DNA of 20,988 nucleotides from a virus. The stretch covers positions 1-20,988 of the IMG/VR virus record IMGVR_UViG_3300017772_000174. The stretch is one strand, 5' to 3'. Below the pieces are notes generated by a model. That model did not search any database and was not told where the DNA came from. It saw only the letters and a program-made list of their open reading frames with translations. Each line of letters begins with the position of its first letter. Positions within the stretch are counted from its first letter, which is position 1. A program made the position numbers and the translations under genes. Shown in pieces: positions 6,233-19,317 of the stretch.

Positions 6233-8152
6233 TTATACTAGATCTACAATTTCACAACTATCACCAGAGCAAGCCAGTGTTTGACTACCTGATGTATTAT
6301 CCTCATTCTCGTACTCAGATACCTTAGACCAGTCAATTCTTTCAGGCATGACCGATTGTAGCATGTCGTAGTCTGACTTACCGCACTCTTGGTAAGGAGC
6401 TTGTTTATAGATGTGGTCATCATACGGCAAAAAGGATACGCCTGACATCTCATCGAAGTTCTTGTATACGAAAGCACCTACTTCAAACCACTCATCTTTC
6501 TTGACATTGACTGTCACAGATGGTTTATGTTCGCACCAATTACGTTGGTAAGCAAGCCACATCTCTAGTTGTTCTATGGCTGTCATATCAGCTGTAACTA
6601 CAGCCCCTTCAGGAGCCTTCTGTGGAAAACTAAACACAGTTGTTTGGTCAGGCTTTGTAGCGCAAGGCTCGTTAGGTATACCCTGATCTTGCATAAACTG
6701 TGTCAGAGGATCTTTGTTATCTCCACGTACAGTACGTATATAATAACGAGAGTGTCGTGCATGAATCCCACTACTGGAATCAACAAGCTGAGAAACCGTC
6801 CCACTTGGCTTAACACAAGTTACAGCAGTAGACACAGGTATTTCTAAACGTTCTGACCACTCAGCATTAGTATTAACAGCAACTTGCTTGAGATGTGCAA
6901 GTGTCTTACTTAACCCTTTGTTACTCATAGTCATCAGAGGATTGTCCATAATACCTGTCAATGAAACGCCAAGTAACCGTTCTTCCGCTGTGTTATCTGT
7001 CCACTGTTTACGCAAGTATGGAAACTTAGTGTATGTTGACTGGATCGTACCTAAGATAGTAGCTAGACGTACTTTCTCCTCTAATGTTTCAAGAGTATCT
7101 GTTGAGCGTACTACACACTCTGTTAAGTTGCAAAACTGACTTGGGCGTAAAATTATCTCAGAACATGGGTTGGTTCCAAACTCGTAGTCAGGATTACGTC
7201 GCCCATTTTTAGCTGCCTGTGCCTTAGATGCCTCACGGTTAAAGATACCTCTCTCACCACTACCACTCTCAACCAGTGCCAACCACTCACGCATGAAAGA
7301 CACTGCATCAGGTTTATTAGCATAAGCCACTGAATTGTTTGCTAGTGACCGTTGACCTTCACGTACAATACCTAAATCTGGATCATCCCACCATGTACCA
7401 CTCTTAGCGTGACGCATACGGTCATCACTCAGGTTGGACAGGGAAATCATAGCTGAACGGCGTACACCACCTACAACAACAACCTCACCTATCTTACACA
7501 TAATGTCGTGACACTCAATAGACTCTAGTTTACGTCCTTGTGCTTCCTTAAAGGTACGGATAGTAAAGTTAAACAGATCGACTAAAGGCGCTGGACCTGA
7601 GGCACGTCCTCCAAAGGTCTTGAGTGGAGCGCCAGCTGGACGAACCTTAGATACATCCCAGGTAGGGATTTCACCACTATACAGGAGTGCAATCAATTGA
7701 CGAAGAGCCTTAGCCCAACCCTCCTTACTATCTTTAACAACGATATTAGTCTCACTGTCGAACAACAACTTGGGAACCTCAGGGAGCTTACTGACGAATT
7801 GCCTCTCAACGGAGAAGCCAACCCCAGTACCACAGAGCAAGATAAACATAGCCTCATCGAAGGATTTAAGGTCATCTACGGCTAAGTAGCTACAGTTGTA
7901 CATACACGTATTGTCTCGGTCAGCAGCTGCGCCAGCAGTCATAAGAGAACGCATAGAAGGCATTACCTCAAGACCTATAATAGCCTGTTCTAGTTTGTAC
8001 TTAGTGTCGGAATCAACCATGTCTCGTATGATATTAGCTGAAAAACGTGCAACAGTGTCATCCCACGATTCACGCCCAGTACCTTCGTAGTACTTGGCAT
8101 ACCGTGACTTATGAATAAAAGATTGATAGTCTGTTGGTAGTGAGTTACTCAT
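6233..8152 (-). CDS. nrdJ: Class II (adenosylcobalamin-dependent) ribonucleoside-triphosphate reductase
   Basis: The 639-residue protein makes deoxyribonucleotides using a B12-derived radical. Visible elements are TNPCSEI with the predicted thiyl cysteine C330 and glutamate E332; the redox partners C341 (QFCNLTEC, 11 residues after C330 as in the Lactobacillus enzyme) and C83 or C87; a VKPSGTVSQLVDSSSGIHARHS loop; a YYIRTVRG strand; and a C-terminal shuttle pair C628/C633 (CSGDSC). No small radical subunit (NrdB) gene is nearby, consistent with class II. The length is a little shorter than typical monomeric RTPRs (about 700-740). The start overlaps the DUF1127 gene by ATGA. Glutaredoxin two genes downstream is the likely reductant. 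It is the hallmark gene of SIO1/cobavirus-type roseophages. Confidence 0.93.
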   Translation of the reverse strand: MSNSLPTDYQSFIHKSRYAKYYEGTGRESWDDTVARFSANIIRDMVDSDTKYKLEQAIIGLEVMPSMRSLMTAGAAADRDNTCMYNCSYLAVDDLKSFDEAMFILLCGTGVGFSVERQFVSKLPEVPKLLFDSETNIVVKDSKEGWAKALRQLIALLYSGEIPTWDVSKVRPAGAPLKTFGGRASGPAPLVDLFNFTIRTFKEAQGRKLESIECHDIMCKIGEVVVVGGVRRSAMISLSNLSDDRMRHAKSGTWWDDPDLGIVREGQRSLANNSVAYANKPDAVSFMREWLALVESGSGERGIFNREASKAQAAKNGRRNPDYEFGTNPCSEIILRPSQFCNLTECVVRSTDTLETLEEKVRLATILGTIQSTYTKFPYLRKQWTDNTAEERLLGVSLTGIMDNPLMTMSNKGLSKTLAHLKQVAVNTNAEWSERLEIPVSTAVTCVKPSGTVSQLVDSSSGIHARHSRYYIRTVRGDNKDPLTQFMQDQGIPNEPCATKPDQTTVFSFPQKAPEGAVVTADMTAIEQLEMWLAYQRNWCEHKPSVTVNVKKDEWFEVGAFVYKNFDEMSGVSFLPYDDHIYKQAPYQECGKSDYDMLQSVMPERIDWSKVSEYENEDNTSGSQTLACSGDSCEIVDLV

Positions 8153-8346
8153 AGGTTATTACCTCGTTCTTTCTTATCTTCTTCTAGCCAAACCATGCGA
8201 TCAATGTCGCCTCGTGTTAGTCCAATATCTTTTAACTCTGCATCTGTTAGTTTATTAAGTGTCTTGATTGCAGCCCTATGCTCTGACCACATAACACAGT
8301 ATCGCATAAACCGTACAAATATATTGTTGACCCACCTAGTCTTCAT
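8149..8346 (-). CDS. DUF1127 (YjiS-like) small protein
   Basis: A 65-residue, basic protein with the DUF1127 core LNKLTDAELKDIGLTRGDIDRMVW at about 30-53. The N-terminus contains a hydrophobic-aromatic helix (WVNNIFVRFMRYCVMW). DUF1127 proteins are abundant in alphaproteobacteria, where some act in RNA processing and in phosphate or carbon control. A phage copy could mimic or interfere with host RNA regulators, but this is inference. CAGGAG precedes the ATG. It overlaps mazG by ATGA upstream and RNR by ATGA downstream, so it is embedded in the dNTP operon. Confidence 0.88.
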   Translation of the reverse strand: MKTRWVNNIFVRFMRYCVMWSEHRAAIKTLNKLTDAELKDIGLTRGDIDRMVWLEEDKKERGNNL

Positions 8347-16984: not shown

Positions 16985-17061
16985 TGGTGTCCCCTACAGG
17001 ACTCGAACCTGTAACCTACTGCTTAGAAGGCAGTTGCTCTATCCAGTTGAGCTAAGGAGAC
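16985..17061 (-). tRNA. tRNA-Arg (anticodon TCT)
   Basis: Read on the - strand a complete cloverleaf is visible. The acceptor is GTCTCCT pairing with AGGGGAC (one G-U). The D arm contains AGCTCAACTGGATAGAGC. The anticodon stem ACTGC/GCAGT encloses the loop CTTCTAA, anticodon TCT. The T arm has GGTTCGAGTCC. Discriminator A is followed by an encoded CCA (16985-16987). It should read AGA and AGG codons, which are frequent in the AT-rich virion genes here (for example at the start of the 1251-aa gene) and typically rare in Roseobacter hosts. Confidence 0.96.
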
Positions 17062-17705: not shown

Positions 17706-18179
17706 TTAAATTTGGTGTGAATAACTTCTACCGAAATCATCCTCATCTCTTAGTCTGTCTAAAGTATCTATGTCTATTTCTGATGGATCCCAAGATGTGT
17801 TCCTTCCATCTATGAACTTACCTTCAAACATACAACCTTCGTCTTGGTAATAAGCGTGGACTTTTACACCTAGACCAAATAGCTTATCCCAGATAGGTAC
17901 AGGTGGACCCCATGCTGTCCAACAAGTGAAGTCAAAGTCTCCTGTTGATTCGTCTTCATACCAAGTTAAATCAGACGCAAGGTATACATCACAAACGTCC
18001 CACTTTGTACCCCATCTATCCCAACGCCAGTTGTACGCATCAGCTGCCTTAGTCAGTGGCATTGGTGTTACGGCATCACAAAACCTGGCGTCATGTCCTC
18101 TGCTTAAATTAAAATATAGCTCCTGCACCATAGCCCAAGGCCCACTAATATTAACTTGTTGATCACAGTGATTAGGCAT
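17706..18179 (-). CDS. Api92/YubB-like ferredoxin-fold protein
   Basis: The 157-residue protein begins MPNHCDQQVNISGPWAMVQEL and continues with TPMPLTKAADAYNWRWDRWGTKWDV and FDFTCWTAWGPPVPIWDKL. These are the marks of the Api92-like/YubB family (MPNwC start, WGTKWD, W-PP) found on phages and plasmids; its function is unknown. It is the first gene behind the operator-rich promoter region at 18196-18317, with an AAAGGATAATAC leader that also precedes the helix-turn-helix gene. The strong regulated promoter suggests an early or tightly controlled role. Confidence 0.85.
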   Translation of the reverse strand: MPNHCDQQVNISGPWAMVQELYFNLSRGHDARFCDAVTPMPLTKAADAYNWRWDRWGTKWDVCDVYLASDLTWYEDESTGDFDFTCWTAWGPPVPIWDKLFGLGVKVHAYYQDEGCMFEGKFIDGRNTSWDPSEIDIDTLDRLRDEDDFGRSYSHQI

Positions 18180-18195
18180 TTGTATTATCCTTTCC

Positions 18196-18317
18196 TATAC
18201 TTTAAGTATATACTCTATTCCTACTTTACTCATAAACATTAATAAAACTTTAAGTAAACCTAAGGTTATTTTAAGGGTATACATTTAGTTCGTCAAGTCT
18301 AAAGTAGTAAAGTAGGA
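18196..18317 (-). promoter_or_regulatory. Promoter with multiple palindromic operator-like sites
   Basis: In the 172-bp gene-free stretch 18180-18351 the - strand has TTGACG (18291-18296), 17 bp and TAAAAT (18268-18273), one of the best promoters of the window. Around it lie AACCTAAGGTT (18257-18267, over the predicted start point), two copies of ACTTTAAGT (18199-18207 and 18247-18255, 48 bp apart), the palindrome AGTATATACT (18205-18214), and a perfect 12-bp inverted repeat TCCTACTTTACT (18219-18230) / AGTAAAGTAGGA (18306-18317) flanking the whole. The expected leader is about 80 bases long. Confidence 0.7.
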
Positions 18318-18351
18318 GATATTGTACATATAATTTATTTATGTGTGACAC

Positions 18352-18549
18352 TTATACCACATAGTTGAGTATTGTGTTGGCCTCATCAATACCTTGATCT
18401 GCACACACATAGCCCTCTTTGATAATAACCGTATCACCTTCCATCGTATTCTTTGAGGCCCAAACTACGGCTCGACGTAAATCCTTAGTAGTAGTGGATG
18501 CCATCATGCTGTCGTCGGACATAACTTTAGTTACATAGATAAAAGACAT
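18352..18549 (-). CDS. Hypothetical protein (65 aa)
   Basis: A 65-residue protein: IYVTKVMSDDSMMASTTTKDLRRAVVWASKNTMEGDTVIIKEGYV. It reads as an alternating beta/helix/beta arrangement; a small single-domain fold is likely. No family recognised. GGAG lies 8 bases before the ATG. It lies immediately upstream of the operator-rich promoter region and downstream of the two-span micro membrane protein. Confidence 0.68.
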   Translation of the reverse strand: MSFIYVTKVMSDDSMMASTTTKDLRRAVVWASKNTMEGDTVIIKEGYVCADQGIDEANTILNYVV

Positions 18550-18730: not shown

Positions 18731-18958
18731 TCATTTCTCCTTTTTTATAGGGCTTCCAGACCAGCTCTTTACTGAGAACCAGTCGTACTTGTACTTGCTG
18801 TTTACGTAGTCACACACCGCCCAATACTCCGCAGATTCTCGTGACGATAAGTCCCACACCCAAATGCATGGGATATTTTCTACGTAGAAGCCTGTTACCT
18901 CTCCATCACACGCCATCATTTCTACATCGGCTGATACTAATAAATTAGTCTCTCTCAT
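18731..18958 (-). CDS. Hypothetical protein (75 aa)
   Basis: A 75-residue protein rich in Trp and Cys (WVWDLSSRESAEYWAVCDYV, YKYDWFSVKSWSGSP). No known motif; an acidic, beta-rich small domain is likely. Its ATG overlaps the stop of the helix-turn-helix gene as ATGA, so the two are translationally coupled. It could act with that regulator, but this is only inferred from the arrangement. Confidence 0.7.
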   Translation of the reverse strand: MRETNLLVSADVEMMACDGEVTGFYVENIPCIWVWDLSSRESAEYWAVCDYVNSKYKYDWFSVKSWSGSPIKKEK

Positions 18959-19317
18959 TTTTCAATCCTTATCGTTACTAGTATAGAGTCATCTTGGTGT
19001 ATAACCTTTGCTTTTCCCTTTGTTTCTGTTGCTGGTTTTGCAGGGTATACACTCAAGAGGGCTGGTACCTCAATCTGAAACACACCATCTACCTTCTTAC
19101 CAAACACACGCCGATCCATAACAGCTTTAGATATTGTAGGCTTAGACACACCAGTCATCTTAGATGCTTGACCTAGTGTTACTACCTTAACACCTTTACT
19201 TTTCCTTACCTTTGCAAGCAAGTTACCCCAGTCGTTGTAACCGTGCTTAGAGCGTGTTCTAGGTCCATAAAATTCTAGTACTTCTTCTAACATAGTTAAT
19301 TGTTTATCTGTAAACAT
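18955..19317 (-). CDS. Helix-turn-helix DNA-binding protein
   Basis: A 120-residue basic protein. Residues 46-75 (VVTLGQASKMTGVSKPTISKAVMDRRVFGK) form a helix-turn-helix of the excisionase/MerR or DNA-binding-helix type, with a recognition helix around SKPTISKAV. The rest is a basic linker and a short beta-strand C-terminus (ILVTIRIEK). It is the only clear transcription-factor candidate in the window, so it may bind the palindromes at 18.2 kb. The AAAGGATAATAC leader before its ATG is identical over 12 bases to that of the Api92-like gene. Confidence 0.82.
   Translation of the reverse strand: MFTDKQLTMLEEVLEFYGPRTRSKHGYNDWGNLLAKVRKSKGVKVVTLGQASKMTGVSKPTISKAVMDRRVFGKKVDGVFQIEVPALLSVYPAKPATETKGKAKVIHQDDSILVTIRIEK

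Follow-up and report, generated by a model that had tools for sequence, protein, structure and literature searches.

Temperate-phage repressors of the lambda and P22 type act at tandem palindromic operators that lie over promoter starts. A different arrangement has been described for the stoperators of cluster A mycobacteriophages, asymmetric sites spread over the whole genome to which the repressor binds as a monomer (PMC9283540). In the control region of cobavirus CRP-4 (L265:39625-40768), which shares its host strain with CRP-9, repeated TACTTAAAGG words stand beside a TTGACA promoter between divergent early and late blocks. HMO-2011-type phages are reported to be dominant in the ocean, with a broad distribution there (PMC9038755), and the roseophages CRP-9 and CRP-13 are described as pairing a replication module of the cobavirus type with morphogenesis of the HMO-2011 type (PMC8528129). 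In term searches of three genome papers on this phage group (PMC9038755, PMC8528129, PMC6918029), neither promoters nor repressors came up, and palindromes were not mentioned in the two papers where they were sought; a search of an open-access library for promoter motifs of HMO-2011-type phages also gave nothing relevant, an absence that is no proof of novelty.

The locus analysed here lies on a viral contig of 20,988 bp (the window), which forms a virus record of its own. Its relatives are the roseophages CRP-9 and CRP-13 and HMO-2011, the nearest isolates by primase being CRP-9 and CRP-13 (65% identity), and a contig of 55,156 bp (G001) is its near-identical twin. With the lambda/P22-type systems it shares tandem palindromic sites over promoter starts and a site sequence that varies among relatives of the same layout; some of these relatives also carry an integrase beside one of the site clusters, cluster B. 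In contrast to the lambda/P22 type, no CI/Cro-type repressor gene was recognised, the operators are found in integrase-less genomes too, and they fall into two clusters, one at the replication promoter and the other at the late promoter, with 4-7 kb between them. One regulator would serve several places in the genome, as in cluster A mycobacteriophages (PMC9283540, PMC6550527); unlike stoperators, the present sites are palindromic and mostly gathered in two clusters. The CRP-4 words also differ from them, being mostly asymmetric direct repeats and not TACT-N3-AGTA palindromes; they possibly represent a related operator system.

With a probability of roughly 0.7, the locus is an operator-controlled host-sigma70 promoter, at which a phage-encoded dimeric protein would bind symmetric 11-bp operators with repression as its simplest action.

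Symmetric elements of the intergenic region

The 172-bp interval 18180..18351 is the gap between the minus-strand ORFs 17706-18179 and 18352-18549 and is an intergenic control region of the cluster B type on the minus strand. The five symmetric elements that the original prediction had placed in it are all present at their positions (Table 1), and the first ACTTTAAGT proved to be the core of a 15-bp palindrome, TATACTTTAAGTATA (18196-18210), whose minus-strand reading TATACTTAAAGTATA holds one of the operators. The twin departs from the interval by two substitutions (18195 and 18333), neither of which falls in an operator or a promoter hexamer. Phage records contained no match to the region at the nucleotide level.

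Table 1. Sequence features of the interval and the gene behind it (window coordinates; operators, promoter hexamers and ribosome-binding site are predictions)
Feature	Position	Strand	Remarks
157-aa gene	17706..18179	-	first gene behind promoter
AGGAAAGGA, likely ribosome-binding site of gene 17706-18179	18188..18196	-	inferred from sequence
Operator TACTTAAAGTA	18198..18208	-	about +54 to +64; matrix rank 1 of 20974
ACTTTAAGT palindromes	18199-18207 and 18247-18255		48 bp start to start
AGTATATACT	18205-18214		best read as junction of the 18198 operator and half-site TACTCTA (18211-18217), 13-bp period
12-bp inverted repeat, left arm TCCTACTTTACT	18219-18230		exact repeat
Operator TACTTAAAGTT	18246..18256	-	about +6 to +16; matrix rank 2 of 20974
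AACCTAAGGTT palindrome, minus-strand reading AACCTTAGGTT	18257-18267	-	directly after -10, over start point; probably a variant operator
-10 hexamer TAAAAT	18268..18273	-	17-bp spacer; TATAAT in relatives
-35 hexamer TTGACG	18291..18296	-	TTGACA here in homologous relatives
12-bp inverted repeat, right arm AGTAAAGTAGGA	18306-18317		exact repeat

Chance symmetry of AT-rich DNA was considered as an alternative, as was RNA structure in a leader or terminator. With an A+T content of 74%, the interval would be expected to contain some 9-bp palindromes: 3000 dinucleotide shuffles gave an expectation of 2.2 perfect palindromes of at least 9 bp, and the interval has 6. That number was reached in 66 of the 3000 shuffles, the 57 bases covered in 15, and six palindromes together with the 12-bp repeat in none. 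When the window was cut into 1041 tiles of 172 bp, six palindromes were found in only two tiles, both over the interval, and 12-bp repeats were likewise exclusive to tiles over it, bearing out the claim that no comparable symmetry density exists elsewhere in the window. An RNA leader or terminator was rejected, as the transcript folds no better than shuffles (z +0.5), no terminator-like site was detected in the interval and Rfam gave no match to it. Chance is contradicted by the conservation and positioning of the sites in relatives, and explanations of this kind retain next to no credibility.

A palindromic motif conserved among relatives

A screen of all 2304 patterns made of a 4-bp half-site, a gap of 0-8 bp and the reverse complement was applied to 29.7 kb of intergenic DNA from ten relatives, the window and twin being left out. 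It was led by TACT-N3-AGTA, with 49 intergenic copies against 2.3 expected and 18 copies in 450 kb of ORFs (binomial p 2e-44), where "intergenic" rests on greedy longest-ORF calls and not on curated genes. The co-leader, ATAC-N5-GTAT, is the same motif extended by one base. Further half-site spacings served as controls. Upstream of the first late gene, TACT-N3-AGTA was counted 123 times versus 3.7 expected, and 37 of the 42 non-redundant loci had it. A matrix trained without the window or twin placed the sites at 18198 and 18246 above all others of the 20,974 window positions.

Among the predicted palindromes, conservation in related phages was thus confirmed for the ACTTTAAGT operators, which form close pairs in several relatives, and not for the 12-bp repeat. 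Outside the window this repeat is present in the near-identical twin only; none of the other cluster B regions read has it, and it was dropped as a conserved element. Nor does it bracket the whole arrangement as had been proposed: the promoter, AACCTAAGGTT and one ACTTTAAGT lie inside it, whereas the other ACTTTAAGT and AGTATATACT lie outside. As for AGTATATACT, it most readily marks the place where two tandem operators meet, since cluster A of the twin has the tandem pair TACTTTAAGTATATACTCTAAGTA intact and AGTA-N2-TACT was counted 27 times versus 3.7 expected; in the window the second copy of the pair has decayed (TACTCTATTCC). The spacing of neighbouring perfect sites peaks at 11-13 bp. The symmetric words of the interval are, on this comparative evidence, very likely binding sites set on a promoter start.

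Two operator clusters and their predicted promoters

Comparison of the genomes revealed a common layout. Most of those examined have both clusters, A and B, and the sites are mostly intergenic and mostly confined to them. Cluster A precedes the late block, whose first gene is conserved and encodes 101 aa; cluster B, represented in the window by the interval, is found within the early block, before the ThyX and primase genes. In the integrase-carrying genomes (G013, G016, G020 and G023) cluster B adjoins the tyrosine integrase gene, with a tRNA between the two in G013 and G023. When cluster A words of CRP-2, CRP-207 and CRP-345 were sought in the early regions of the same phages, no clear cluster B was found.

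A tRNA-Arg (UCT) at 16985-17061 of the window (minus strand) lies inside the replication operon. The same tRNA-Arg is located between cluster B and the integrase in the integrase-carrying L252 and L264, beside cluster B in L078, and is also present in CRP-9 and CRP-13; its placement near cluster B and integrase in relatives suggests a former attachment-site neighbourhood. Integration of CRP-3 into a tRNA-Met site has been reported (PMC6918029). In many relatives (e.g. L252:3250-5821) a peptidase-M28-like gene and a gene for 480-560 aa precede cluster B, a place taken by other small ORFs in the window.

At cluster A, a sigma70 promoter is followed by an operator no more than 60 bp downstream in 29 of 42 loci, compared with 2/42 on the antisense strand and 3/42 for a control palindrome, and 20 of the recorded offsets fall 0 to 3 bp after the -10, with a start at 1-3 bp being the usual case. 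Other recurrent elements were noted in these upstream regions. In L164 and other loci, the stretch from the operators to the first late gene contains another conserved word, TTTTTGTCGTCCC / TTTGTTGTCC, together with a second promoter, TTGAC-17-GTATAACT; GTGATCAC and GTTT-N6-AAAC palindromes recur as well.

The window promoter, TTGACG-17-TAAAAT, has 10 of 12 hexamer matches within the 16-18 bp spacing rule of a host sigma70 promoter, and no RNA polymerase gene was recognised in these phages. From the hexamers at 18296-18291 and 18273-18268 a start near 18261 is predicted, which, the promoter lying on the minus strand in a gap between minus-strand ORFs, would read into 17706-18179; behind this gene follow, on the same strand, the tRNA-Arg, ThyX, primase-helicase and DNA polymerase A. 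Since sigma70-like matches are no commoner in the region than in shuffles (19 vs 14.5, sd 3.4), the case for the promoter rests on its conservation in relatives. The cluster B promoters of the nearest relatives (L043, L045, L049, L058, L055 and L050) have 11-12 of 12 matches with operators just downstream, the window promoter being weaker than these homologues. Upstream regions of the 157-aa gene give no help with conservation, except in the twin, as this gene is accessory and found in other contexts. AACCTTAGGTT directly follows a sigma70 -10 in three independent genomes (the window with its twin, L058 and L174); it is weak by the operator matrix (rank 125 of 20974) and is probably a variant operator on the start point. 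With the ACTTTAAGT family conserved and placed on promoter starts, and with AACCTTAGGTT in this repeated position, the original prediction of an operator-dense promoter serving as a regulatory switch is supported. In L102, L067, L082 and L046, cluster B operators occur with no promoter passing the scan, and the operators may have another role there.

The original prediction had also named a replication origin as a possibility, in which the palindromes would be iterons for an initiator beside an AT-rich unwinding stretch. An AT-rich core between operator pairs and the repeat period of 11-13 bp would suit such a function, and the cumulative GC-skew minimum of the twin lies near cluster A (18.75 kb). 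However, the skew does not turn at the interval, which makes an origin there unlikely, and it follows gene direction, which turns at cluster A too. In addition, there are two clusters per genome, of which cluster A is closely tied to a promoter start, and no initiator gene or family was recognised nearby; overall, an origin appears improbable.

Proteins that may read the sites

The operator sequence varies between genomes, and comparison shows that it agrees between the two clusters of one genome. The variant TACTTTAAGTA occurs in both clusters of G013 and G022, TACTATTAGTA in A and B of G011, and TACTGTTAGTA is the variant of G015, while G020 and G023 use a 10-bp form, TACTTAAGTA, at A as well as at B, a form not found in G001, CRP-9 or the G013 stretch read. 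Similarity of A and B variants was 0.69 for matched versus 0.40 for permuted genomes (p 1e-4, phylogeny not controlled). CRP-2, CRP-9 and CRP-13 infect the same host strain, FZCC0023, and have differing sites at the same place (AACATTAATGTT in CRP-2). This agreement within genomes, together with differing variants on one host strain, suggests that the operator-binding protein is probably encoded by the phage. A transcription factor of the host might be considered instead, as host RNA polymerase presumably reads these promoters and no phage binder is known; nevertheless, the differences among the three phages of FZCC0023 speak against it, as does the fact that G020 and G023 have 10-bp instead of 11-bp sites in their two clusters, and it seems quite improbable.

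The search for a phage-encoded binder among the early proteins scanned yielded none that is conserved across the group and has a recognisable DNA-binding domain. A 120-aa protein (18955-19317), which had been put forward as a helix-turn-helix binder, shows sub-threshold HTH matches only, and its matches are the twin and one weak match of 31 residues, whereas the operators are widespread. It is therefore a poor candidate and was rejected as a general binder. The 101-aa first late-block protein (L164:3001-3303; G001:17494-17799, minus strand), with a HIP[RH]S[DS]VF core, was found in more than 500 viral contig stretches, a conservation to be read with the fact that many loci were chosen by this protein. 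Its AlphaFold model is all-helical (pLDDT 79) and resembles no PDB or viral fold significantly, the protein matched no family, and profile comparison with HTH_28 proteins gave a probability of 0.9%. The HTH_28 protein itself is present in some integrase-carrying genomes only.

Proposed mechanism and significance

In the preferred reading, a host-sigma70 promoter in the interval would be read leftwards into the replication genes and be controlled by a phage-encoded dimeric DNA-binding protein acting through 11-bp operators with the consensus TACT-N3-AGTA, here TACTTTAAGTA, AACTTTAAGTA and probably AACCTTAGGTT. As the operators are located at and just downstream of the start, the simplest action of the bound protein is repression, and repression of the promoter is what we infer as probable. 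The protein may prevent the polymerase from forming an open complex or from escaping the promoter. Repression may be strengthened by cooperativity between proteins bound at neighbouring sites, one helical turn from each other, and a bridge could perhaps form between the operator groups about 50 bp apart. If the same protein also bound cluster A at the late promoter, one regulator would set both replication and late transcription.

The main rival to repression is that the protein bound at the same sites activates or times transcription, or organises DNA. In many relatives long arrays stand on either side of an AT-rich stretch, and the operators are kept in members with no recognised integrase, to which a repressor of lysogeny would be of no evident benefit. 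Near-consensus sigma70 promoters, however, should need no activator, and activator sites are normally upstream of the -35, whereas the present sites are on and behind the start point. Such a role appears unlikely, albeit clearly less so than an origin or a host factor, and the repressed promoter remains our preferred reading. Its regulator could function in lysogeny or immunity in the integrase-carrying members and in timing in the rest.

Several symmetric operators overlap or abut a promoter, and the same operator occurs at more than one lytic promoter and co-varies between them, in a comparison that does not control for ancestry. It is conceivable, although we hold it only tentatively, that HMO-2011-type and CRP-9/CRP-13-type marine phages share an undescribed two-point transcription switch with a phage regulator of an unrecognised protein family, that its operator specificity diversifies between same-host phages as in immunity groups, and that it is kept in genomes with no integrase. 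An operator of defined sequence and clear position offers a way into how these phages could time their replication and late genes in marine hosts that grow slowly, and it can be used to isolate the regulator. Should the operators mark out immunity groups, sequence data would allow lysogeny and co-infection in these phages to be tested.

Elsewhere in the window, a 65-aa protein with a DUF1127 domain (8149-8346, minus strand; E 6e-10) is encoded within the phage nucleotide-metabolism block.
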